Below, one piece after another: positions 5,376-63,157 of a stretch of DNA of 64,000 nucleotides. Position 1 is the first letter of the stretch. Each line of letters begins with the position of its first letter. Source of the DNA: Metridium senile (Eukaryota > Cnidaria > Anthozoa > Actiniaria > Metridiidae); NCBI GenBank assembly GCA_949775045.1, contig OX459108.1:10022072-10086071 (forward strand). Reading direction: 5' to 3'. Under the pieces are notes generated by a model. It was not told where the DNA came from, searched no databases, and was given only the letters and a program-made list of their open reading frames with translations. The translations under genes were made by a program, and so were the position numbers.

Positions 5376-6236
5376 TAACAATTATGTTTTAGAATTTGTG
5401 TTTCACACAATAAACTTTAATTGTTGTTTAATCGTAGTTTTATTGAGTCATTAACCATAATGATAGCCCCCATTTAAAAACAATGGAGCGTTTTGATTGG
5501 ATGCTTTACCACCTCTAATAAAACATTTATTGGATAATTGCACGTACAGGGCTCATTTAAAGTTTATTGAGTAAATAACGTTTAACTGGGTTCTCCAATG
5601 ACAGAGAGTTTTCAAGAGCATCAATGCAAGGCTGTAGCATTAAAAACCAAGAACGCTAAGGTCGATATAAGGTCAGTTTTAATAATGGTTTAGAGTTTAT
5701 TTAAATAAGCTAAAAAGATAAATTATGTCAGTTTAAGTGATATTTGTTTAACAAGTACTGAAAGGATGAGGAAAGATACCAAGCATGTTTAATTTGCTAA
5801 AATAAAAAAAAGCAGAAAAAAGCCTTAAAAAGGAATAGAAGCAGTGAAAATTATGGCTAAAAGATTGCACAATATCTTGCAATAATTTAAGAAGCGAAAA
5901 GATGGTTTTAAAAGTTGCAAAAAGGTTGAACAAATTGTAAAACTCCCAATTAGAGCTTGAAAAATGCACCGAAAAGCAAAAAAAGTTCAAAATACAAAAC
6001 AGCAAAAAAAAAAAGACAAACATAAGTTTCTATTTTTTGTCAAAATATCCAGAAAAATAGTCAACGGAAACGTAAAATAAGCAGTCGAAAAAAATACTCT
6101 GAAAGCAATGACTGCATTCATTGTCAGATTTAATAAAAATGCTTTATTTAAAAAAAGTTATTTAACAAATCAAAACTTTAAATCTAACTTTTAGATAAAA
6201 CATCATTTTGAAAGAAATATATCAAAACAGGCAAAT
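5376..6236. other. AT-rich upstream region of the PAN/pentraxin gene
   Basis: About 860 bp of AT-rich DNA directly upstream of the ATG at 6237, expected to hold its promoter and 5' UTR. I see no gene. The 91-codon minus-strand frame at 5748-6023 is Phe/Leu/Ser-rich low-complexity reading of A-rich DNA. No TATA box stands out from the AT background. Confidence 0.5.
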
Positions 6237-7062
6237 ATGTTGACGTGTCGACATATCACACTGACGTCATTGATAGCTATTGTTGTGTTTCCATGGCTAC
6301 CAACCATGGCCTATGAACAAGTCTGCGGGTTGTTCTTCACCAATAAGAATCTAAAGCTGGCAGGTCACGTGATCAAGAATGTGTCCGTCCAAACCAACAT
6401 GAAATGCATGGACCAGTGTGCTTTGGAAAAGCGTTGCTATAGCATCAACTTTTACCAAAACAAAAGTATATGCGAGTTGAATGGTGGCGATCATCTGACC
6501 AACCCTTTAAGCCTTGGGCAGTACCTTGATGATGGTGTTGAATATATGAACAACCATGAAAGAATTCCCTACAGGTGCAACAGATTATTGTGTACAGATT
6601 GGACAAGGCAATGTCTAGTAGATAAAGATGGAGAGGGCTTTAAGTGTAACGCATGTGAAGGTATTATGTGAGTTATAATTTGTACTCATAGTTTGTATCA
6701 TTATTACCATCATCATCACCATCATCACCATCACCATCATCATCAACTCCATCATCATTATCATCATCATCATCACCACCATCATGCTCACCATCAACAT
6801 CGTCATCACATTGTCTTCTTTAATATTCATCTATATCACACTATAGCTACCACCAATATTATCAACAACATCATCATTATCATCGTCATCACAATCATTA
6901 TCATCAACATTATCATCATCACCACTATCATCATCATCCCTAACATCGTCATCACATTGTTTTTGTATTCTTGACCATTATCTATATCATGATCAAACTA
7001 CCACCAAGATTATCATCACCATCATCATTATTATCATTAACTTAATATGACTTCATTATTAC

Positions 7063-7110
<48 letters not shown>

Positions 7111-9911
7111 CATCATCATGACCATCATCATCATCATCATTATCACCATCACCACCACCATCATCATCATCATCATCATCATCATTATCACCATCACCAC
7201 CACCACCATCATCATCATCATCATTATCACCATCACCACCACCATCATTATTATCATTATTATCATCATTATCACCACCACCATCATCATCATCATCATT
7301 ATCACCATCACCACCACCATCATTATTATCATTATTATCATCATTACCACCACCACCATCATCATCATCATCATTATCACCATCACCACCACCATCATTA
7401 TTATCATTATTATCATCATTACCACCACCACCATCTTCACGACCATAATCATCATCATCATCAACACCAACACCAACATTATTATCATCATTATTATGTT
7501 TCAGAAGCTCATGGCAGAGAGGTTCTCTGGTGGCCCAGTAGACATGTATATAGGACAGTAAGATGGGAGAAACCATTTAACAACCATCTGGCTGCATTCA
7601 CCATCAGTTTGTGGTTAAAAGTCATTTACGACCAAAACAAGCCTTCGTATCATTACACAGCGTTCAGCTACGCCACCGTCAAAAACTCCAATGAACTCGG
7701 GCTTTTGTTTATGACGGACAACACATTATTTCTTCTGAATGGAAAATTGAGGTATGTTTCAAATTTGGCTGTCCACAACATTGTCCGTATAATGTCCCTG
7801 TAAAGGTTCAGTAAGATATCCGTAAATTCCAGTAAGGTTTCTGTAAAGTAACTGTATACGTAAGATTCACTTTCCAGTAGGATATCCGTAAATTCCAGTA
7901 AGTTTTTCGTAAAGTAACTGTCTACGTAAGATTCACGTTCTAGTAAGATACATGTATGCGTAAATTCCAGTAAGGTTTCCGTAAAATAACTGTATACGTA
8001 AGATTCACGTTCCAGTAAGATATCCGTAAATTCCAGTAAGGTTTCCGTAAAATAACTGTATACGTAAGATTCACGTTCCAGCAAGACATGCGTAAATTCC
8101 AGTAAGGTTTCCGTAAAGTAACTGTATACGTAAGATTCACGTTCCAGCAAGACATGCGTAAATTCCAGTAGAGTTTCCGTAAAGTAACTGTATACGTAAG
8201 ATTCACGTTCTAGTAAGATACATGTATGCGTAGATTCCAGTAAGGTTTCCGTAAAGTAACTGTCTACGTAAGATTCACGTTCCAGTAAGACATGCGTAAA
8301 TTCCAGTAAGGTTTCCGTGAAGTAACTGTATACGTAAGATTCACTTTCCAGTAGGATATCCGTAAATTCCAGTAAGTTTTCCGTAAAGTAACTGTCTACG
8401 TAAGATTCACGTTCTAGTAAGATACATGTATGCGTAAATTCCAGTAAGGTTTCCGTAAAGTAACTGTCTATATATATATAAATATATAGATATATATAGA
8501 TACAAAATTGTCCTGATTTGCATAAGTTTAAACATGAATTTTCTCGACCAGATATTCTTTAATCTTGTCAATTTTATTAAAATATAAAAGAACTTACGTT
8601 GGACTTTCATAAGTACTATACAATATTCGCATCCGATCTGTATTCGACTCGCCGTTGTATATCACATATAGATCGGCCGCCCATGTTGTGCAACAGTGCA
8701 ACAGACTTATACTCACGAGTTGTTTGTGACAAAATGTCTTTTTAGATGGAAATAATAGTATGAATAGCCCACGATATTTTGGTTGAGTGATCATACACAA
8801 TATAAACCAAAACGAGACTCAACTCGTGAGTATAAGTCTGTTGCACTGCTGCACTGTTGCACAACAATGATGGGCGGCCGATCTATATGTGATATACAAC
8901 GGCGAGTCGAAGACGAAGTCCAACGTAAGTTCTTTTATATTTTACTAAAATCGACAAGATTAAAGAATATCTGGTCGAGAAAATTCATGTTAAAACTTAT
9001 GCAAATCAGGACGATTTTGTATCTATAATACAACCTTCGTCACGAACGTGATTTCTTTTATAAAATTCTCATTAACTTTTCATGATTTTTATATTTCCAT
9101 ACAGTACTATTCCAAGATCATTGACTCACAATCACTGGCATCACGTGGCAATCACGTGGAACAACACAAACGGTGATTGGCAGTTCTTCATCGATGGCCT
9201 CAAGATAGCCGATGGGAGATCCAATGAGGGTCACGTGATTAAGCCAGGCTATTTGGTTCTTGGTCAAGAACAAGATCGTTACCGTGGAGGGTTTGATCCC
9301 AGCCAAAGTTTCAATGGACAGTTGGGCAACCTTCACATGTGGGACAAGGTTTGGACTTTGATCACTTTAATCATGAATACATGCATAGAACGGACTCACA
9401 TTAAAACATCCGAAGACTTCATAGCTCGCTATAGAGCGAGTGTGAAATGTTCTGTGCCGTGTGAGTGCTTTGCCGCGACCGTGATGTCTCTAGAATATTT
9501 AGCAAATGCGCCTTTTGTACAAACAGAACAGCTGTTTTCCTGATCAGAATCCTGATCAGTAGACATTTTTGAAAACTTATTGACCGAATCTGAATATGGT
9601 GACATCCTATTGTTCCTGTAAAGCCTGGTGTTCACGTTGGAACAAAATAAAATGTTTACATGCATTTATGAAAGGCTAGCCTGTCAATAGCACTAGTAAT
9701 TCAAATCGGTCGCCATTTTTCGATTTGCTGTATTTTAACTTGTATTTTGATTTGCGTGTAGGTCCTGACGAATAAGAACCTAGTAGGCCTTGCAAAATCT
9801 GGGTGTGGATCGATAGCAAGGGTTGGTAACGTCATCAAGTGGGCTGACGTAAAAAGACAAAGAAGACATCAAGTGCATTTCTACTGTTCCTATGAATGTC
9901 AGAAGCCATAA
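6237..9911 (+). CDS. secreted PAN/apple + pentraxin (LamG-like) protein
   Basis: Four exons join cleanly: 6237-6660, 7505-7751, 9105-9348, 9762-9911, all GT-AG, giving 354 aa. Residues 1-25 are a signal peptide (hydrophobic core LIAIVVFPWL). A PAN/apple domain follows (Cys30, 57, 61, 67, 79), with an N-glycosylation sequon at Asn48. Next is a short Cys-rich, possibly EGF-like segment (Cys114, 119, 126, 137, 140). Residues about 150-354 form a pentraxin/LamG fold: FTISLWLK, HWHHVAITWNN, WQFFIDG, then QEQDRYRGGFDPSQSFNGQ, which holds the calcium-binding Gln-Glu-Gln-Asp and the QSFxG motif of pentraxins, and LHMWD. The protein is likely extracellular and binds glycans or phosphate-type ligands. 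The canonical Cys of the pentraxin HxC signature is not present. Introns hold a trinucleotide satellite, a minisatellite and a foldback element. A MITE begins 24 bp after the stop, so it probably lies in the 3' UTR. Confidence 0.9.
6695..7490. repeat. ATC/ACC satellite in intron 1
   Basis: Same triplet class as 1-1407, filling most of intron 1 (6661-7504) of the PAN/pentraxin gene and ending about 15 bp before its acceptor. Between 7120 and 7440 a longer unit of several tens of bp (ATC runs, ATTATCACC, then ACCACC) is repeated. Open frames here are compositional. Confidence 0.95.
7800..8470. repeat. minisatellite, period about 68-72 bp, about 9 copies
   Basis: Units contain ttccagtaaggtttccgtaa, agtaactgtatacgtaagat and tcacgttccagtaagat with small variants (tctacg/tatacg; tatccg/catgcg). 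It lies at the start of intron 2 of the PAN/pentraxin gene, shortly after the donor at 7752. Minus-strand frames (7668-8206) are repeat readings, not genes. Confidence 0.95.
8494..9029. mobile_element. foldback MITE in intron 2, about 535 bp
   Basis: Left arm 8494-8720 (tagatacaaaattgtcctga ... gcaacagacttatactcacg) and right arm 8820-9029 (ctcgtgagtataagtctgtt ... aggacgattttgtatctata) are long inverted copies. They contain gcggccgatctatatgtgat on one side and its complement on the other. No protein is encoded. The left end sits in an AT dinucleotide tract, so the target duplication cannot be read. Confidence 0.85.
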
Positions 9912-19333: not shown

Positions 19334-22300
19334 ATGGAGGGAGATCGAGATATAGTTCAAATTGAACAGGATGTTGTAAACGCAACTGAAATTGAAAATC
19401 TCTCGCCGGTGAGTGAGGAACAAGTTGAGCCATCTGTCATACCTGATGGAGGCTGGGGTTGGTTTATTTGCTGTGGAACATTCGTTGTTAACTTCATCAT
19501 TTTTGGGATCCATAATTCCTTTGGTGTTATCTACGCAAACTTACTAGATGAACTCAAAATCGGAGAGGCAGAAACAGGCATGTATATATATTTTCACTTG
19601 TATTATAATTGTTTTTCTTTTTTAAGAACAGCATGTGCATAATTTCATTGGATATCACCGATGAAAATGTTCTAGATAAATTATATATACTTTTGTGCCG
19701 GTTTTCTCAATGATTTTCCGGGAAATAATTTTACTTTTCTGTACTTTCGACCTTCGGGCTTGTAGTAATGAACTAGAATATAATTGATCTAAAACTGAAA
19801 GTGTGTATTTCGCAAGCGAGGCTAGAAAAAAAAAGTTCATGACAAGCCATGATATTAAGTCCACAGCTTCTGTTTAAGGTCAAAATATTGGCTAATATTA
19901 TTCGTGACCTTGGTGATGTCTTTTTCAATAAAGCTTTTGCTATCCGGCGATTATTACATAATGTTGTTATTCTGTTCAACTTGAATTTTAAAACACACAG
20001 TCAGTTTATTAACATTTACTCTGATCATTGCGTTTAATATTTTTACTAAATCTGCCGATATAAACACATCAATAGCATTACTTTCATCATTCAGATTCAA
20101 ATTCATTCAAATTAGTGCTAAGACCAAAGCAAACATGAAAATAAAAGTAACAGTGTAAAAAAAAGTCATCGCATTCAAATACACTCAAGTTTATTAATGC
20201 TCAAGAAATATAATCCGAGCCAAGCCGAAGATATTTTTTCCTGAATGAATATTAAAAGTAAAAACCTTCTGCATTCAAAAGGAGGTTTTCTCAATTTTAA
20301 ATTATAAATTCCGTAACATGTAACGTCAAAACATCGACTTGTTTTGTTTGCTTTTCGAAATAACAATTACAACACCTTGAAAAACAGTGCTTCTATTAGC
20401 TATATCCACAATTAACTTAAAGAAAAACAGGCCTGTATTCATGCTAGAGGATTTTAGGACTACAATGTGAAAAGTCAACTCTTTTTAGCGAAGAAATTTG
20501 GTCACAAAACGTTTACAATCGATTTTTGGCGCAGGCGGCATTATTTAAATTCACGCGTCACCAAAACATTTCTACCTTGTGTCAACTGCTACCTTAGTAA
20601 CGTAATATGCTGTAAAATACACATTTATAGTAAACTGTAAAGATATATTTATGAAACTGAATAAGTTTTATTAGTTCGCTTTCTATTGATATTTATTTCT
20701 AAGATTAGTCTGGTCACGTTTTCATGATATTGTATGCTCTGAGTTCAATAGTAAATCATGCATTATAGATTGCAATAACAATCATATAAGATCTATTTAT
20801 AGTAAGAAAAAAAACATATACCTGTAAAGAATTATCAATTTGTATTGAATTTCTGAGTATTTTTTATTATAATTATTTCATACACGTGGCTCGGATGGAT
20901 ATGATGTTTTTTCGTTCGATAGAGTTCAAAGTCCAGTTAAATGTATTGTTTGAGAGTTTCAATCGAATGATCTTGAGAACAACAGAGCATGCTGTTTCTT
21001 TCGATCTTATATTTAGCTTGTGTACGTGCACCTATTTTGGACTTTGAACTTTATCAAACGAATGAAGGTCCAATTAATTGAACCGGTCACGTTGTAACAA
21101 ATGAAAAAGCTAAATGAGAAAAAAAAAAAAACACTCTAGCCACATAATGTTAATATAAAAGTTTCTGGCAATGATTTATCCCTATTTATTTTAGACTCGT
21201 CTGTGTTGTGTTTCATAAAATGGCGGACGTAGACCTGATAACGAAACTAATAAAATGGTGTAAAAAATTACGATGGAAAACTTCAAAATTCGATCATTTT
21301 CCCTAAAAAATACGATGAGAAACTTCAATATTAAATGTTTTTCCCTCAAAAAACTCTTAGAGATTTCTCCTAGTACGAAAATTATTTTTTAAAGCTATTT
21401 CTTCGAGTAGACATATAGTTGACTATGATCCAAAGAAACGACAGTGGGCACATACAGTTTACGTAATTGAACAACAACAACAAAACTAGTGTATTTTAGA
21501 GTGAAGGCACTACATTTATGCAACAAAACCTATGAAAGTGTAATAGTCAAATGACACAAAAGAAATATACACCTATTTCAATTAACGTTGTCCATCTGGA
21601 ATGGTTGATCTGAGACCGATAGGAATTGTGGGAGTTCATTAAATTTCAAATACATTGTTTTAATCACACTTGAATGGTGCTGAATTACAGATAACAGTAT
21701 TTCGGAAGTAAACATTAATATTCAAGTATGATTATAATAAATAAATAGTGCATTTGCAGTTTAACGAGCTCCCACAATTCCTATCGGTCTCAGATCAACC
21801 ATTCCAGATGGACAACGTTAATTGAAATAGTTGTATATATATTTCACAGGTATGATGTCTTCAAAGTCTATTTGTTTTTAACGTTATTCTATTGTAACTA
21901 ATGGAGTCATCGTTATCTCTCTTGAATGGTTGTTATTACAGTTATTTGCCAATGTTTTCAAACAATGCATTCTAATCACGGCGCTAGGGTAATAACAGAA
22001 AGCTCAAATATTAGTTCATTGTTCAAAATCATTTGCATGCAACTGTATGACAAAGACAGGATTTTCTATACGAAAAAAATCACTTAGAGCTAGTCCAAAG
22101 GCACGCAATACGTCTTTCGCTCTTAAATATCTTTGTCAATTTTATTATATAATTTAAGATTATTGCCCCGCCACAAGGCAGGGCTACGAAAAATCAAACT
22201 ATACACTACAACACTACACGGATATCTTTAGTAAAAGGCGACAGTAAAAAAAAAAAAAAAACAAGAGTGGCGTTTTTCAAATATTTTGTAAAATTTATCA

Positions 22301-25300
22301 TTATATGCATGGAGCAATTAGCTACAAGTGTTAATTTAGTCTGATAAAGACGGATGGACACTTACCAGCATGCACCGCGCGAAAGACTGGATTTCGTGGA
22401 CCATGAAACACACCAATCAGAAATTTTAGTATCTTTTACGATTTGAGTTTGCATTTACGTTCTTACTAAATCGTTTAGTGTTTTTTTTTTATATATATTT
22501 TCTCTTTATTCGACTGAATACGGATTAATTATAACACTCAAATCAAAATTAACAGCGCAAAGCATGCCGGTAAGTGACCGTTTGTATTATCATCGAATTT
22601 TTAAAGAAAAAAAAAAATGTTTAAATTTCTCCTCAGCATGGATAGGAGCCCTGGCAATGGGTCTTAACTTCTTCTGTGGTCCTCTCACAAGTTTACTATG
22701 TGATCGCTACAGCTGTCGTGCCGTGGCTTTCGTCGGCGCCTTCCTATCCGCCCTCGGCCTTTTCCTGACATCCTTCGTCCAAGAACCTTCCAAAATGTAC
22801 GTCACCTATGGATTACTGTTTGGTGTTGGCTCTAGCTTGTCCTTCGTTTCTTCAATTGTCGTTTTAGGAGATTACTTTCATAAGCGTTTGGCATTTGCTA
22901 ACGGAATTGCAACATCTGGGAGCGGCGTGGGATCCCTTATTACGGGGCCGGTTATAAACTATCTTCTCGGTACCACTGGATGGCAGAACTGTATGAGGAT
23001 ATTAAGTGCGTTTGCTCTGCTACTGGTGGTAGCTGCGTTTTTATATCGACCTAATAGGAAGATTGATAGGTCGGCGAGAGGAAAAGCCAAACTTTTTGAG
23101 CCTAAGATATGGAGAAATAAAGCGTATGTGTGCTGGGTGGTGACTGTAGCTTTGTTCCAGTTTGGATATCTCATCCCATTTGTACATTTGGTAAGAGTTT
23201 TAATGTTGAATACAGTGATGAAACCCCTCTATACCGGACCCTCAATAAACCGGAACCCCCGCTAAACCGAACATTTTTCTTGGATCCAGCAATATCCGGT
23301 ATAGAGGGGTTTCACTGTACAGTTGACTCTCTCGTAAGCGACCACCCTCAGACCAGAGGAAAGTGGTCGCTTACGGGAGATAGTCACTTATAAAACCTTA
23401 ACACAGGAAGACGAAACCCTATCACGGGAACCAGGCGTAGAGCTTACAGTGTATGCATCTGTGCTTAACAATCCAGAGTAACACTTGCATATGTTGTATG
23501 CATAACCACAATTGATTTCAATCGTTCAATCTCCATTCGCCTTTCACCCCGAAAACTGACTGAAGTGACCTAAACGGCTATGCCCGTCGAGTACACTATT
23601 CAAACTGACCATGCATTCCCACGGGAGATGATTTAATGATATGCAAGACTATATAACAAGGGGCATGCAATTAATTCATTGTCATTTGCTCAAACTGCCG
23701 AAACGAACAACATCGATCCGGGTAGACTGATGGAATGTTAGGGCGGGGGGAGGGCACAGGGCAGTGAGTGTCCAAAGTGCCTTTCGGTGTTATGCTGAAG
23801 AAGAGATTCGCTGAATAGGAGAGTGTCTACAAGAAAGCAGTAGTTCTGTTTCACCCACCCACCCTCCCTCTTCTTTTAGAGTCCTGGTTGGCCGTTGCCT
23901 CTCCGGATCTCCTCCATTGTTTTCCCACGGGAACAATGAAGTTTCTCGATTCCCCATTCTTAACATCGATCCGTGGAACAATGGCCAGTTTGGATATACT
24001 ACTATGCCTATCGAGTAATTACCATTTATTATTTCTCCCTCAGGTACGATATGCCGAAGATCTGGGCATTTCCAAATCAAAAGGAGCCTGGCTTATCGGT
24101 TTTCTATCAATAACGTCTACAGTCGGCCGGGTCTTATTTGGTAAACTTTGCGATATGAAAAGAATAAACCGATTGTACGTCTATCAGTTCTCCACGTTTG
24201 CTATTGGTCTAAGTACTTTATTATGTCCGCTGGCTAAGTCGTACGGTGGGCTCATTGGTTATGCGTTAACGTTTGGTCTTTTCGATGGTTGTTTTGTTGG
24301 CCAGGTAGCTGTCATTACGGCTGATATAGTAGGACATGAGAATCTTTCACAAGGAGTTGGAAATCTGTTTGGATGTCTTGCGGTACCGATGAGCTTTGGG
24401 CCTCCTGTTGCAGGTTAGTGTACATGTTGATTAACTGGTATCCTGTGAACAGAGGCTTTTTTTCTTCTCACCCTTAAGCCCCGGTCAAACAGCAATGATA
24501 ATTGATGATAGTTCCAACTATCATGTGCGTTTGACCACCAACTATCATGCACTATCATCGACTATCATGGACTATCATAGAGTTTGAACATGTTCAAATT
24601 TCACATGATAGTTTTTGCCGTTTGACCGCGTGAATGATAGTTGATGATAGTTGAGACGCCTTCAGCTGTCATCAACTATCATAGCCGTTTGACCTCCGCT
24701 TTAGAGCTTTACGTTAGAAACTTGCTTTTCTCGTCGCTCTCAGAGGGATAAGAGAAATCAACCTCTGCTGGCAAGATAACTTGCTGGTAAAGACCAAACT
24801 AAAATATGGTGACCTGCTATACAGTGTGCTGTCTCATGTTCACGTTGGAGTGATTACGGCCACGGTTTCCTCACTGAGTGGTATACTTATATACATCCCC
24901 GAATGCAGCCGGTTGGTGAGTGTAGTGTGTGATGGTGTGAGCCAGTCACTAGAGTCAGGCTGAGTTTGTTACGTCCTCAGTGTTATATGTTTCTCAACTT
25001 CCCCCATACAGTAGGCCTCTGGTCCTTAATTAAGTTGCCTTAAATCGCCCTAAATCGCTTAAAATTGCCCAATGTCGCCTCTGATTTCCCTCCTTTTTTT
25101 TCTAAAATCGCCTTAAATCATGATCGCACAAAATCGCTTAAAATTGCCCTATGTCGCCTCTGACTATCTTATATTTTCCTAAAAATCGCCTTAAAATGCC
25201 TTAAATAACGGTGAGTTATTAAAGGATCCGAGACAGGCCTTACAGTGTATTGAGTGTAAGTGATAACGGCCAGGATTTGCTACTACCGTTCCTCAGTGTT

Positions 25301-27660
25301 ACATGTTTTTCAAATTTCCCCCATACAGTGTAGCGTGTGTAATTTGAAAGTGACGACGGCCAGGGTTTGCTACGGGTTTGATACATCATATCAATCACCA
25401 TTGATATTTAAATTTCTTATAATATTGATGATAATATATATAACATCAATTAACACTCAATTAAAAAGTTATTAGTCATAATTCCTGAAGATTGTAAGCC
25501 ACCAGTGGTCTGAATATATAATTGCAAAGCGCATTGAGACGTATGTGAAATGCGCTATATAAGCACCACATTAAAAAAAACGTTACAGTGCGACTACTGA
25601 AACCGGGGCCACCAAAACATAACTATCCAATCACGATGGAGAATATGATCAATAGAATGCCTACTTGTGTTTGATTTTTTTTGCTTAAAATGATACTAAT
25701 TTTCATTATATGTGAACGGAATAGATCAAGATTGAATAAGAAACATTTTAGCTTGTGAGAACCCTCTTTTTTTTTTTTTTTTTTAATCTCAAAAACTATT
25801 CATTTTGAAATTTCAGTTGTTTGGGTGGCCCCCGTTTCAGTAGTCGCACTGTAACAACATTGAGGGACGTAAAAGAACTCCGTGTTCAGACATGGGTTGT
25901 ATGCATGGGTTGTACTGCATCTCTAAACAGATCAACAAAGATTTACAACTTATCAGCAAGTGGTCTGCTAGCAACAAACTACAGATAAATAAAACAAAAA
26001 CGAAGTCAATGTTTATTTTGGGGAAACGCCTTCGTAAACGCCTAAATAACGACGAAATTGACCTTGACCTTGACCTTGACATTAATATCAATAACTCTGA
26101 AATAGAACAAGTACATAATCACAAAGTTCTTGGAGTAATTCTCGATGATGATTTAAATTTTGATGCTCACGTGGATGATCTTTATAAAAGAGTTTCACAA
26201 CGACTTGGAGTTCTAAGAAAAATTAGCCCCTATCTCAAACGTCAACAAAAGGAAACATATTACAAAACTATAGTTAAACCTGTCCTTGAGTACGCCTGTC
26301 CAATCTGGACTATATGCAATAAAAATAACCTAAATAGACTCTTCAGCCTTCAAAAACGCGCGGCTAGAATAACAACTGGTGCTGATCCCGAATCAAGGTC
26401 AATCAACTTATTCAACTCTCTTGGGTGGTTACCGTTTTATCAGGAGTCACTTATCCACAGCGCATCTATCATGTATAAACGTATCTCAGGCGAGACACCC
26501 GACTATCTGAAGGAGAAGCTGCTAACAAATTCTGACATTCATAGTAGAATCACCCGTTTTTGTAAACTTAACTTTAACTGTCCAACCTTTCAGAGGAAAA
26601 CGGAGGGAGGCAAAACTTTTGCCGTGCGAAATAGTAAACTTTGGAACTCCTTAGATAATGACTTAAAAAAGTCCAAATCAGTCAAAAACTTTAAAAAAAG
26701 TATTTTTTCAAGTTTTATTCAAAAACAAAAAGAAACACAGTCCTTCTTTTAGTGTAGACAATTTACAGTTATTCACTTAAAACTTTTTGCAATTTTTTGC
26801 AATTTTTATCATCACATTACGATTATAAATTTCAATCCATAATAATCTCCTTGTAATTTTAAAATAGCTCATTCAATATTTAGCGTTTTATACATATATA
26901 TATTACATTTTTAACTCTTTTTTACTACAAATTATATTAATATTTTTCTTATATATCATAGTTTTTGTATACTTTGTTATTCTTATAAATTTACTTATAT
27001 ATATATAATTATATATTGATCTATATATAGATATTCACTTATTATTATTCAGTATCATTATTTTCTTATTGTTTTAGGGCCACTAGGTTATCAGTACGAT
27101 TATTGTAAATTGTAACTGTTATGTGTCACCCTCTTTAAATAAAGTTTATTCATTCATTCATTCATGGTTGCAGCTTAATGCGCCTTGATATACCTTCAAC
27201 TCGAACACGTTGAGTAAGCGCATTGAGCAGTTCTGGATAAGAACTAGCAATTATTAATTATTATTATTATTACATTACATTTATGATATTTTAATTATTT
27301 CAAGGTTGGATATACGAAGGATCTGGCTCCTACGATGTTGCTTTCTTCGCGTCTGGTAGTGTAGCCATCGTCTCTACTATTTTACTCTTCTACGTAGCAT
27401 TCCTTAAGAACGATATAGGATCACTTACAGAGATAAATCAACGTTCAATCGACCAATCACAATCCGACGCCCATGACGCATGCTCAGACAAAGAAGACCG
27501 CATTAGTTTACCATATAGAAACAGTTCAGGCTATTCGTCCCATTCGCAAAGCGATGACTGTCGACTGCTGGTTGATAACATCGAAGGCTCAAAAACGTAT
27601 TTAGAAGGATGTAAATTAAGACAAAAGTTTGTGGATCTTGAGCGAGAAACAGTTTTATAA
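19334..27660 (+). CDS. SLC16-family monocarboxylate transporter (MCT-like)
   Basis: Four exons: 19334-19577, 22637-23190, 24044-24413, 27305-27660, giving 507 aa. This is a 12-helix plasma-membrane carrier of the major facilitator type, expected to move lactate/pyruvate-like or other carboxylates, often with protons. Diagnostic are DGGWGW at residues 38-43 entering helix 1 and YFHKRLAFANGIATSGSGVG (161 on), the conserved helix 4-5 signature. GRVLFGKLCD (294-303) supplies the charged pair usual in helix 8. The C-tail (after about 430) is Ser/Asp/Glu-rich and cytosolic. Start: ATG 19334 is followed by an acidic N-tail, as usual. Intron 1 must begin at GC (cag|gcatgt, 19578) to keep frame with the AWIGAL exon; the nearby GT at 19581 would shift it. 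Introns contain several MITEs and a LINE fragment. Which SLC16 paralogue this is cannot be told, and no basigin partner is in the window. Confidence 0.92.
20908..21067. mobile_element. short inverted-repeat element
   Basis: ttcgttcgatagagttcaaa near 20911 pairs with tttgaactttatcaaacgaa near 21043, with about 110 bp between. Probably a degenerate MITE. Confidence 0.55.
21573..21830. mobile_element. MITE with 60-bp inverted ends
   Basis: ctatttcaattaacgttgtc ... ctgagaccgataggaattgt on the left is matched almost perfectly in reverse at 21768-21830. The spacer is AT-rich and non-coding. Confidence 0.85.
23213..23317. mobile_element. MITE with pogo/Tigger-like ends
   Basis: TA-flanked; the ends cagtgatgaaacccctctat and atagaggggtttcactg are inverted, followed by accgg. 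It lies in intron 2 of the transporter, 22 bp after the donor at 23191, and shares its right-hand TA with the next MITE. Confidence 0.8.
23320..23388. mobile_element. small MITE abutting the previous one
   Basis: cagttgactctctcgtaagc and the imperfect complement gcttacgggagatagtcact enclose about 20 bp. It begins at the TA (23318-23319) that closes the preceding MITE. Between here and the exon at 24044 I see no gene. Confidence 0.7.
24477..24699. mobile_element. MITE rich in actatcat motifs
   Basis: ccccggtcaaacagcaatga at the left and catagccgtttgacctccgc at the right are inverted. The inside has many aactatcat/atgatagtt copies in both orientations, so the whole unit can fold. It lies in the transporter's third intron. 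Confidence 0.75.
25480..25580 (+). repeat. LINE/SINE 3'-tail fragment
   Basis: gcaaagcgcattgagacgta ... aatgcgctatataagcacca is the kind of 3' end shared by L2/CR1-type LINEs and their SINEs. It lies in the transporter's third intron. The DNA before it (25020-25230) has degenerate aaatcgcctt-type repeats. Confidence 0.55.
25586..25851. mobile_element. TA-flanked MITE, family A copy 2
   Basis: cagtgcgactactgaaaccg and the complementary right end at 25832-25851, each with flanking TA. It is the same family as 9935-10193. It is followed within a few bases by the LINE fragment. Confidence 0.85.
25857..27170 (+). pseudogene. 5'-truncated non-LTR retrotransposon (LINE), C-terminal reverse transcriptase part
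   Basis: The open frame 25892-26752 encodes the end of a LINE ORF2. It has the LQLISKWSASNKLQINKTKT segment, then KVLGVILDDDLNFDAHVDDL, SPYLKRQQKETYYKTIVKPV, LEYACPIWT and LQKRAARITTG, which are the thumb and connection region of non-LTR reverse transcriptases. The catalytic FADD part and the endonuclease are absent, so the copy is dead. The 3' UTR ends in aaataaagtttattcattca, a simple-repeat tail as in CR1/L2-like clades. The host site is the transporter's third intron, same strand. Confidence 0.88.
27178..27290 (+). repeat. LINE/SINE tail ending in ATT repeats
   Basis: gcgccttgatataccttcaa ... agcgcattgagcagttctgg followed by attattattattatt. It is directly upstream of the acceptor of the transporter's last exon (27305). 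Probably a short retroposon end. Confidence 0.5.
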
Positions 27661-44591: not shown

Positions 44592-45589
44592 TGACTACAA
44601 CTCTGAAAAGAAACACCGAAACTTGAAACTCAATATTTAACTCAATAACAAGCTTAAGACGATCAACTGCGTGGAAAGATATTTAAAGCAATAGCAAAAC
44701 GATTAATTAAGTTAAAAGATATTCAAGTTAATGACAAGACGTTAGATTTTTTTTTTAAAACCCTACATTTCGAACCTACCATTTAAAACCATTCTCGCGT
44801 AATCTGTTAATCTAAACTTTCCAAAACTGTCTTTCATTGATTTTTAGAAGGCAAAACCTGATTGGCTTCACTTTTTTTAAAAAAAACGGGTTTTTGTTTT
44901 TGTTTTGTTTTGTTTTTTTCAAAATATGCTTCCTCTATGGGCGTAGCAGATTTATCCAATCAACAAAAATATATGCTTTGTAAGAAAATAGATCAAACAC
45001 TTGGATACATGAAGTATTTGAAGACAGTGAGGATACTCGAACCGTTAACACTTGATTTTTTCCATGTTATTATATTCTGAACCTTCTCACTGCTTCAAAA
45101 CCTCTAAAAATGCAGCAGTGAGTTCAAATCCACTGAATGTTTGAAAGAAATATTTCTCAGTAATCTATTTGCTCAAGGGATACAGGTTAAAAAAAGGAAA
45201 AAAGAACCTAAGTGTTCACGGTTTGAGTATCCTCAATGTAAGACTAAACGTGGAAAACGGGAGTGAGTTCTAGTACAAATAACCAATGTTGATGTGAATA
45301 ATTTCTATATACATAGGTGGGCGATTAATTAGAAAATATTTGAACAAATAATATGTGTTATGTGTTATAATTGATCTTTAGTTAAAACACTTTTCTATTT
45401 TTGTCCACAATGACGTCGATCAAGTGAAGTTCTTGTTATTATAGAAAATACATAAAAAATATATTTTAAGTTTGACAAAGTCAGAACTATATCAGCTTAA
45501 CATAAAATATGTTAAAAAAGCAAAAATACTATATCCATGAATTTTTTATTGTGTAATAGTTCTTGTTTAGTGACTATTAGTCACTATAA

Positions 45590-48830: not shown

Positions 48831-48901
48831 ACTATCTCTATGCCTAGTCTAGATGTTTTTAACCCGTTTGACTGATATCCTTACAGATTATCTTCAGTAT
48901 C

Positions 48902-51900
48902 ATGGGATTTCAATCTTCTATGTCTATACTATTAATGGCAGTAATCTTCTTGGCCGCAATAGAATCAAATGGTAAGTATTATTGAAGAAATAAAAAATAT
49001 TTCAGATACTACGCGCGCTCAGATTGGCTGGCTACCGTTTTTATGTCAGAGGACAGAGAAGCAATATAAAATGTCTGTTTGTGTCTTTATAATTTTTCGT
49101 CTCAGTATTTCAACATTCACTCAAAGTTTAGAGGTCTTTAGCGGCTATGTTTTGGTAGCGTCCCCTAAAAACCTCGATCCCAGGGCCCTCTCCCTTTTTC
49201 CCCCGCCCAACCCAAAAGCGAAGGGAGAGCGCCATGGGATCGAGGTTGGTCCCCTAAAACATCCCCAGAATACAGCGCGTGGCCGACTCGCACCAGTCCA
49301 CTGCGCAACTCCGAAAAACATGGCTAATAAACACTATGGGGGCTGTATAGAGCACTCGAGAAGTTAGACACACACTCGGCTCGTGTCTCGTGTTTCTTTA
49401 TATACGACTTCTCTCTTGCTCTACAGCTCCCAGTAGGGGTAAGAGAAGCCGGGTGCATCTCAACATTTCTCGGGTGTTTTCACAATCCCCATTACTTTGC
49501 AACTGCAGACAGCACATCAAGCAAGCTGTTTAAATTTTCTTTCATAAAATACGTTATATTAAATCCTGTCATTAACTTCCTTAATCCCATCTTATCTTTA
49601 AATCCTCTAATTCAGAATCTAAAGAAAGTGTTGATTCACGGCAACGGTTTACTAGGTCAGCGGATTGTGTACGTGGAGTTGACGGATCATGTCAACCACT
49701 AATAGGTGAAGAAGAAGAAGAAGAAGATGGAGAGGTTGTAAAGCGACAATCAAACTGTGATCGAAAAATATATCCAAACTGTAGACTATCAATAGGAAGA
49801 AAAAGGTACGGCCAAGCAGAACTAGAAACACCCGGGGGGGGGAGAGAGTACTTCCACTTTTCCAAGTGGTAGGGGTGATCGGCGGAGGTTTTGAAAACAA
49901 CCCCTAACAGGTACGCGCAGATAAAAATAACTGATAAAGCCTTGTTGATTTCTACCCAAACAAAACAACAAAACACAGTAATTATGATTCTTACAGGTAC
50001 AAAATCATGTTACGTAACTGATTTTTGAGCCAGGCCCTCACATCAGCAATTAAATATTTTAACCCTAAAACTGGGCACGCCCGGGGAATAGACACACGCC
50101 AAAAGTCCGTGAAACAAATCAATATCCACGTGCTTTATGACTTCACACAACACGTACGCGTTTTCTATTTTTTCATCTTATCTATAATGGTTAAGACCCG
50201 GCCAAACAGCTTCAACATTTGCTTCAACATCCGTTCGATTTTGTTGAATGGCAATGTTTTTAAGGCTTTTAAACTCTTTCAACATCAATTCAACATCAAT
50301 TCAACATGTTTCAACAACGTTGAAAGAGTTTATAAGCGTTTAAACATTGCTATTTAACAAAATCGAACGGATGTTGAAGCAAATGTTGAAATCGTTTGCC
50401 CGTGCCCTTATCTATGATGGTTAGACGTCCTAGACTCAAAAAACAAACGCAAACTGTAATAATAATGTATCATCTCCCGAAAAGTAATCATGTTTAAACC
50501 TTTTTGAAATAGGTATCATATTTTCTTATTATTATCAATCGGTGTTTAATTTCTTATCTCTAATTGGACTCTTTTTAGGAGCCAAGTACCAAACCTAGAT
50601 CCCGAGGGGAGTAGTCTAGATTGTTCTAGTCCAGTAATGAGAACCAGTGTTCTTTGCAAGGTTATGACATATCTACGTAGGTGTCAATCAGGAGACTGTG
50701 ATGACTCACTTAAACGAGGTAACGTACCACAACATAGAAGCACGGGCTTCCCACAATATCAATCTGTGGTTTTGGGCTTCCTGCGGTATGTAAGTTCAAT
50801 AGGAAGCCCAAAACCACAGATTGATAGTGTGGGAAGCCTGTGATAGAAGGATCTTAAGGCCGGTTCACACGGGCGATTTTTGCGGCGATTTGAAATGCGA
50901 TTTTCGCATCAATATCAACAATAAACCCTCTATAAATGTTTAATTTTCTGCCCTTTAATTTTCACATATAAGTTTCATCATTGCAAACAGCTTCAAAATT
51001 GCCATTCAACAAAATCGAACGAATGTTGAAACCGTTTAACCGGGCCTTTAGTCTGAGAGAACCTCATTTTTTTCGTTTCATCTCAAACATACTATATAAT
51101 ATTCATTTTAAAATTTGTTTGGATTGCATCGATTGAAGTACAGTGGAACCCTGTTAATCCGGCCACCGAAGGGACAGCCCAAAGTGGCCATATTAACGGG
51201 GTGGCCGTATAACTATTAAGCAGGTAAATTTTATAGAAAATGTATGGCATACATTTCGTCGGGACCTAAAAAACTGGCCGCAATAACGGGGTGGCCGTAT
51301 TAAGCGGGTGGCCGTAAGGCGGGGTTCCACTGTAGTTCCATTGTAAAACGTAAACATAGCAGCAGCATCATTGCTTTGGCTTTAGGGAAGGACCATTAGA
51401 TATTTGAAGTGTGAGGGGTTTAGACATTTTTTGATGTAATTGTTTTGGTAATTCGCCTTTCCGGATTCATGAGGTGACTGGGGCTGAGTGACAAAATTAA
51501 TCTAATTAAAAAATGATCCCCATCACAAAATAAAACATACAAACATTAGTATTATTACCGGGTTTGAGCATGTTTGGATAAACACTTATACTGAGTTATA
51601 AGCTTCTAAAAGTCGCAAAAAATAAGAGAGAATGTATGGGGTTTAAGGACAGCGTCCCCAAAAACCATACATTCTCTCTTATTTTTACGATTTGTTTAAA
51701 GTCCATAAATCAGTCAGTCATTCTAAAACTTGATAAACTTAATAATTTTAGTGCCGTCTTCCATGTGATGTGGTTTGTTTCTTAATTAGATTAATATTTC
51801 TACACTCGTTCCCAGTCCCTTCATGAATTCCGGAAAGGCGAATTGCCATCCCTTACTAATTTATTTTAATTTATTTTATTTTAATGACAAAGCGAGCCCG

Positions 51901-52836
51901 ACCTGCGATACCAGATCACCTCTATGTTATATCACATTCCCTGGTAAGAGATTAGGAAAGCAAGACGAACTACTTCCATCCTTCCACAAGCGTCAAGCTA
52001 CTGAATTTCCAACAGAAGAAGGAACTGAGAAGTCGAAGAAAGGACAGGAGGGTTGTAATCCTAAGAGGGATTACTTTTGTCGCCATAGAGTACCGGGAAA
52101 ACGGAACAAGGTGAGATGTTTGTATTACTCACGCTACCCCCACAGGGGAGCCTAAGATTACTCAGGCTACCCCACAGGGGATCCTGAGTCTAGGCTTTCT
52201 ATCTATGGGTCTATCGTTGTGTCGAGATTACACATGACTTAATGCCACAGGTAAACCACCTATCAATTACTACTCTATGACGTAGCCTGAGTAAACGCAC
52301 TAAGTGCGCCTAGTCTATCTATGGGTCTATCGTTGTGTCGAGATTACACATGACGTAATGCCACAGGTAAACCACCTCTCAATTACTACTCTATGACGTA
52401 GCCTGAGTAAACGCACCAAGTGCGTCTAGCCGTAATAGAGCACTAACACTAAAACTTTGTCATAATGTCAGCCAGCTAATTATCATAATATATGAAATTG
52501 CTGATGTAAGGAAAATAAAGCTATTCTATAACAATAAGGTGTGAAAGTTCTACAAAATATACGTTGGCGTTTTTGAAGCCGTTTATAAACTTGCAGATCG
52601 TGTTTTATCAGGTCTAAAACCACTTGGCTTCACCTCGTTGTTTTAAATCCTGATAAAACACTCCTGCTCGTTTATTAAACTATACACATCGCACTTTCCA
52701 TGTGAAATATGTTGAAATGAGATTTACAATGTCTAACTGATTTAACTAGTTATAAAATTTAATAAATTAATATCAATATTTAAAGTATCTTTATATTTTT
52801 CAGATCATCGAAACTTCCACCAAAACAAATGCTTAA
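48902..52836 (+). CDS. secretory precursor of four Cys-loop peptides, at least three predicted amidated
   Basis: Five exons: 48902-48971, 49616-49805, 50579-50718, 51893-52110, 52804-52836, all GT-AG with matching phases; 216 aa. Residues 1-23 are a signal peptide (SILLMAVIFLAAIES). Four short Cys-loop units follow: C41-x7-C49-QPLI-G before six Glu; C71-x7-C79-RLSI-G then RKR; C138-x6-C145-YITFP-G then KR; C188-x7-C196-RHRVP-G then KR. Gly plus dibasic is the standard signal for cleavage and C-terminal amidation, and two units would end in Pro-amide. Dibasic sites at 66-67, 132-133 and 166-167 release N-termini (one Gln, possibly pyroglutamate). Residues 102-127 hold four more Cys (C102, C113, C122, C127). 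I know no named family with this arrangement. Neuropeptide/hormone precursor is favoured; beta-hairpin antimicrobial peptides or venom-type peptides are alternatives. The exon 4 acceptor (acaaag) has a weak pyrimidine tract. Introns carry at least five MITEs. Confidence 0.85.
49157..49255. mobile_element. MITE in intron 1 of the peptide precursor
   Basis: cctcgatcccagggccctct / gagcgccatgggatcgagg, with ccctttttc / cgaaggg. Short hairpin-forming unit. Confidence 0.7.
50203..50405. mobile_element. MITE, family I copy 1
   Basis: ggccaaacagcttcaacatt ... atgttgaaatcgtttgcccg inverted. Inner catccgttcgattttgttga and its complement. Lies in intron 2 of the peptide precursor. Family also at 50985-51050 (fragment) and 55950-56158. 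Confidence 0.8.
50741..50841. mobile_element. 100-bp palindromic element just after exon 3
   Basis: cacgggcttcccacaatatc ... gtgggaagcctgtg, with aatctgtggttttgggcttc matched by its complement. It begins 22 bp after the exon 3 donor at 50719. Confidence 0.8.
51141..51332. mobile_element. pogo/Tigger-like MITE, family J copy 1
   Basis: TA-flanked cagtggaaccctgttaatcc ... ggcggggttccactg. Internal repeats ggggtggccgtattaa. Intron 3 of the peptide precursor. Second copy in opposite orientation at 53671-53860. Confidence 0.85.
51383..51860. mobile_element. foldback element ending 33 bp before exon 4
   Basis: tttagggaaggaccattag at the left versus gccatcccttacta at the right; cgcctttccggattcatgag / ttcatgaattccggaaaggcg; inner aaataagagagaatgtatgg and its complement. 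Its right end falls where the exon 4 branch-point region should be. Confidence 0.75.
52190..52435. repeat. 121-bp tandem duplication in intron 4
   Basis: Two copies of tctatctatgggtctatcgt, tgtgtcgagattacacatga, ccacaggtaaaccacct and tgacgtagcctgagtaaacg, differing at few bases. Confidence 0.9.

Positions 52837-55356: not shown

Positions 55357-63157
<7,801 letters not shown>

Follow-up and report, generated by a model that had tools for sequence, protein, structure and literature searches.

A candidate gene for a precursor of amidated, disulfide-loop peptides in the sea anemone Metridium senile

Background

Does a short stretch of chromosome 14 of the sea anemone Metridium senile hold a gene for a secreted precursor from which several small, disulfide-closed and C-terminally amidated peptides would be released, and if so, would these peptides serve as signals or as venom? 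Peptides that combine one ring with amidation are familiar from the vasopressin/oxytocin, CCAP and calcitonin types. The vasopressin ring encloses four residues in the arrangement C-x4-C-P-x-G-amide, and its precursor carries a neurophysin domain. The CCAP ring encloses five residues, and calcitonin has a small N-terminal ring, possibly similar in size to those considered here, followed by a long chain that ends in Pro-amide. Among cnidarians, one-ring amidated peptides have been described from scyphozoans and cubozoans (PMC6909153). In Nematostella, mass spectrometry has documented precursors cut at KR, RR and KK, peptides that often begin with Q directly behind the cut, and amidation from Gly (PMC11087051).

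All positions given here are those of the window, the whole stretch of 64,000 nucleotides that was analysed (Metridium senile chromosome 14, OX459108.1, 10022072-10086071). Besides the candidate gene, the window contains a monocarboxylate transporter 10-like gene (19334-27657, + strand; closest named match from Nematostella, 76%), within which lies a 302-residue open frame (25844-26752, +) that resembles by eye the final part of a LINE-encoded reverse transcriptase and has no Pfam match. PAN and pentaxin domains occur in successive open frames at 6195-6671 and 9076-9543 (+) and perhaps belong to one secreted gene. TRAPPC10 domains (PF12584, PF23604) lie at 55357-56019 and 60330-60800 on the minus strand, facing the peptide gene.

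Results and discussion

The candidate gene occupies positions 48902-52836 of the + strand, which correspond to about 10,070,970-10,074,910 on chromosome 14. Its five exons join into a frame of 651 nt, or 217 codons including the stop, which encodes 216 residues, and its introns are all GT-AG (4/4) with phases 1, 2, 1 and 0. The five-exon structure with fitting phases that a sequence-only reading had proposed was reproduced down to its exon coordinates and its last base. Exon 1 (48902-48971, +) provides the start codon and a signal-peptide-like segment, MGFQSSMSILLMAVIFLAAIESN, with a gtaagt donor immediately behind it; upstream, ccttacag, which ends at 48886, may be a 5' UTR acceptor. At 3.29, the 10-residue hydropathy of this segment is the highest among the hydrophobic ATG frames listed for the + strand between 28 and 49 kb, and an in-frame ATG at 48920 has the same segment. 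The signal peptide claimed earlier was therefore recovered as a signal-like N-terminus, as judged by hydropathy only. A signal exon of a second, upstream gene was also sought, and none was convincing.

Exon 2 (49616-49805, +) encodes RFTR (an R-x-x-R site), unit 1 (CVRGVDGSCQPLIG), a run of Glu that derives from a GAA repeat, KR, and unit 2 (CDRKIYPNCRLSIG, contained in QSNCDRKIYPNCRLSIG-RKR). The last R of this RKR is split by the intron, and exon 3 completes its codon. Exon 3 (50579-50718, +) encodes a middle part in which C-x10-C, RR and C-x4-C follow one another, with KR at the end. Exon 4 (51893-52110, +) encodes unit 3 (CDTRSPLCYITFPG, contained in ASPTCDTRSPLCYITFPG-KR), a spacer with KR and KK, and unit 4 (CNPKRDYFCRHRVPG, contained in GQEGCNPKRDYFCRHRVPG-KR). 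The acceptor of exon 4, acaaag, is weak, with few pyrimidines immediately before the AG. Left unspliced to exon 5, exon 4 would continue to a stop ending at 52155. Exon 5 (52804-52836, +) supplies the final 10 residues, IIETSTKTNA, and the stop, immediately behind which AATAAA was found by eye. The last intron includes a tandem pair of 116-nt copies that are 97% alike (52198-52429), and the start of intron 1 (about 48990-49060) is part of a repeat with at least about 40 further genome matches.

All four of the Cys-x6/7-Cys-x4/5-Gly units noticed earlier were found again in the precursor, as were the basic residues behind three of them (RKR after unit 2, KR after units 3 and 4). Unit 1 is followed by EEEEEED, with six Glu and no basic site, so that of the four cyclic peptides proposed earlier three can be amidated, and unit 1, which lacks a Gly-basic site, cannot. 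The tails of the amidatable units are RLSI, YITFP and RHRVP; two of the three peptides end on Pro, in agreement with the two Pro-amide ends that had been predicted. The 12 Cys of the precursor form six consecutive pairs, each of them preceded by a dibasic or R-x-x-R site, and the predicted ring sizes are, in order, x7, x7, x10, x4, x6 and x7. Convertase and amidation sites are repeated along the chain (GRKR, GKR and GKR, together with KR, RR, KK and RFTR). One of them, RR at residues 120-121, lies inside the four-Cys middle part, which would thus be cut into two peptides, C-x10-C and C-x4-C, the latter without a Gly-basic site; the single four-Cys product envisaged earlier would give way to two two-Cys peptides. 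The loop of unit 4 contains a KR and that of unit 2 an RK, which would complicate, and speak against, a simple processing scheme. Outside Cys and Gly, the likeness of units 1 and 2 is not clearly above that expected (P about 0.10, one pair), and descent by duplication accordingly finds no support.

The best reading of the gene is an amidated, convertase-processed precursor of disulfide-loop peptides; the interpretation given by the sequence-only reading is supported in part. Under this reading, the signal peptide would be cleaved off in the ER and each Cys pair would form a disulfide loop. Convertases would then cleave at KR, RR, KK and RFTR, a carboxypeptidase would remove the trailing basic residues, and PAM would convert the exposed Gly to an amide on three peptides. 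The predicted amidated products are pQSNCDRKIYPNCRLSI-NH2, ASPTCDTRSPLCYITFP-NH2 and GQEGCNPKRDYFCRHRVP-NH2, and up to three more two-Cys peptides would be non-amidated. With the disulfide closed and the amide in place, the calculated [M+H]+ values are 1889.911 for unit 2 with pGlu, 1868.867 for unit 3 and 2159.013 for unit 4, the last rising to 2177.024 if its loop is cut. The released peptides would most likely serve as secreted signals at receptors. We infer every one of these processing steps. As a cyclic-peptide precursor gene the locus is probable, a good candidate though an unproven one, and we lean towards regarding it as a genuine gene of Metridium senile, apparently present in one copy, that encodes a secreted peptide prohormone whose products probably act in signalling.

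Searches for relatives were negative within their reach. Among proteins, the whole precursor had no relative at E<=1 (29 candidates) and a four-unit probe had none at E<=10 (17 candidates), both searches depending on common five-residue words. The precursor matched 0 families in Pfam, which we take to include the sea anemone toxin families, and 0 PDB sequences, both at E<=5, and no family in NCBIfam. Viral contigs gave 154 pattern matches, none of them a relative, and the six ring sequences were absent from the paper texts that were searched. As a control, the neighbouring transporter found a Nematostella protein with 76% identity and 73% query coverage, as well as several corals, which shows that anthozoan proteins are present in the database. 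The names shown for the control, among many rows that were nameless or incomplete, did not include Metridium, Diadumene or Exaiptasia, the last of which presumably shares a superfamily with Metridium. Since the best control match reached just 76% and no close genera were named, near relatives may be absent from the database, and the negative result for the precursor is limited to that extent.

The genome search, which covered 389.28 Mb in 169 contigs (the published jaMetSeni4.1 assembly has 390.9 Mb in 250 scaffolds, a few small ones of which seem to be missing from the searched copy; PMC11362738), returned four matches to the precursor, each of them one of its own exons. The gene thus appears to be single-copy, although weak paralogues may escape a search in which only four candidates passed the first stage. 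The earlier designation as a family of anthozoans is not borne out, as neither the protein nor the genome searches, all of limited reach, found a relative.

Signalling is favoured because Q follows KR and because Gly-RKR and Gly-KR sites are present, both of which are usual in the anemone neuropeptide precursors of PMC11087051. The main alternative is a venom or gland precursor with several loop peptides, stored in nematocytes or gland cells, and it earns this place because Metridium senile itself has venom peptides, Ms11a-3 and Ms11a-4, that carry a C-terminal Gly for amidation (PMC9866706). Several peptides per precursor also have a parallel in a jellyfish, where one precursor contains five presumptive ShK-like peptides (PMC11122761), and an anemone toxin that has a nervous-system relative (PMC10501145) indicates that venom and neural roles can be close. 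Against a venom precursor stand the processing sites just mentioned and the lack of any Pfam or PDB match at E<=5. The Ms11a peptides, likewise secreted, are each the single mature peptide of their precursor and have a modified ICK fold (PMC9866706), whereas the candidate gene encodes several two-Cys units. We regard a venom role as unlikely, albeit worth keeping in view.

Less probable again is a locus without function, in which open frames are chained by chance or a gene has decayed. The failure of the protein searches and the weak coding statistics would suit such a locus, as would the occurrence of look-alike frames by chance, exemplified by CSRFEYPQCKTKRGKR at 45213. This match, which was first read as a paralogous exon, has plausible splice sites and a likeness to unit 2 of P about 0.006 (Cys and Gly fixed). 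It was rejected as part of a dispersed repeat: it lies within an inverted repeat, in one of the two 30-nt arms ( 45024-45053 and 45210-45239), and the element (about 45024-45241) has copies of about 75% identity in 2/20 random 10-kb loci. A flanking paralogue was sought in three 10-kb loci, and no strict match was found there.

The strict pattern used for such matches was Cx6-7Cx4-5G[KR][KR], read in six frames. The window contains four, namely three in the precursor gene within 2.3 kb and the one at 45213. When the window was dinucleotide-shuffled 300 times, the mean was 0.12 (0 in 265, 1 in 34 and 2 in 1), and two matches within 4 kb on one strand were never seen. Twenty 10-kb stretches taken at random from the genome (200 kb) contained 0 matches. 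As the pattern was chosen after viewing the units, all these figures are post hoc and somewhat overstate the case. Three strict units within 2.3 kb thus argue against a chance origin, as do the chain without a frame break, the signal-like exon 1 with its good donor, and exons that are nearly free of the repeats found in the introns.

With regard to the last point, repeat copies cover 31/651 exon bases, all in the GAA run of exon 2, versus 1145/3284 intron bases, and 53/3934 circular shifts of the exon set matched its repeat avoidance. Exons 1, 3 and 4 had no blastn match at E<=0.01 in the 200-kb genome sample, and exon 2 matched over the GAA run only (3/20 loci). Exons 1-4 are all stop-free in the chosen frame (4/4); the other two frames hold 3 and 0 stops in exon 1, 4 and 7 in exon 2, 5 and 6 in exon 3, and 1 and 6 in exon 4. 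Codon usage, trained on one transporter gene, placed exon 2 above 95% of intron windows and exons 1, 3 and 4 below that level.

The predicted precursor also differs from the known ring peptides. It departs from the vasopressin/oxytocin type in its spacing and in having no Pfam family at E<=5, and from calcitonin in that just 4-5 residues separate ring and Gly. The difference in spacing asserted by the sequence-only reading consequently stands for the vasopressin and CCAP rings but not for those of calcitonin, which can be similar in size, with much longer tails. Nearest in idea is the medusozoan cyclic FRamide family (CTSPMCWFRPamide, CXGQMCWFRamide), which is likewise multi-copy, with one presumed ring and a short amidated tail, but whose copies are nearly identical with a conserved WFR, while the Metridium copies are divergent (PMC6909153). 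That the gene is another guise of this family, CXXXMCWFR(P)amide, is highly improbable: in both cases a cnidarian precursor with Gly and basic sites is predicted to yield amidated peptides that have a single ring, and CTSPMCWFRPamide of jellyfish has a Pro-amide end as units 3 and 4 do, but its ring is C-x4-C against C-x6/7-C in the amidatable units, none of which has WFR, and the family was not found in the Octocorallia and Staurozoa surveyed (PMC6909153).

Actiniarian neuropeptide precursors, among them those of RFamide, GPRGamide and LRWamide, resemble the candidate in signal peptide, dibasic sites, a Q that often follows the cut, and amidation from Gly (PMC11087051, PMC7523074). The multi-copy precursors of PMC7523074 contain identical or similar copies, whereas the Metridium units share the Cys pair and the Gly and little else.

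Conclusions

The preferred reading is a secreted prohormone for amidated loop peptides. That it represents an undescribed sea anemone family of amidated signalling peptides, with one disulfide each and several copies per precursor, is a tentative suggestion, which we hold to be possible and somewhat doubtful. Such a family would have escaped the hexacoral survey of PMC7523074 because its script demands at least three highly similar peptides. That survey took in the genome and transcriptome of Exaiptasia, and the portions of it considered here mention no cyclic family of this kind, nor does its text mention Metridium. The terms 'cystein', 'cyclic' and 'disulfide' do not occur in the main texts of three anthozoan neuropeptide papers (PMC7523074, PMC6756747, PMC9525235). 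Disulfide bridges were permitted in PMC11087051, where bridged peptides were graded as uncertain identifications; such peptides may therefore already be in its data (PXD041235), and a described relative may be among the 15 new ones of its 33 Nematostella precursors.

With the exons placed exactly on an assembled chromosome and the peptide masses predicted, the question is directly testable. If the proposed family is real, it would expose a blind spot of the similarity-based precursor script (PMC7523074), and a single precursor of Metridium senile would give rise to as many as six distinct rings.
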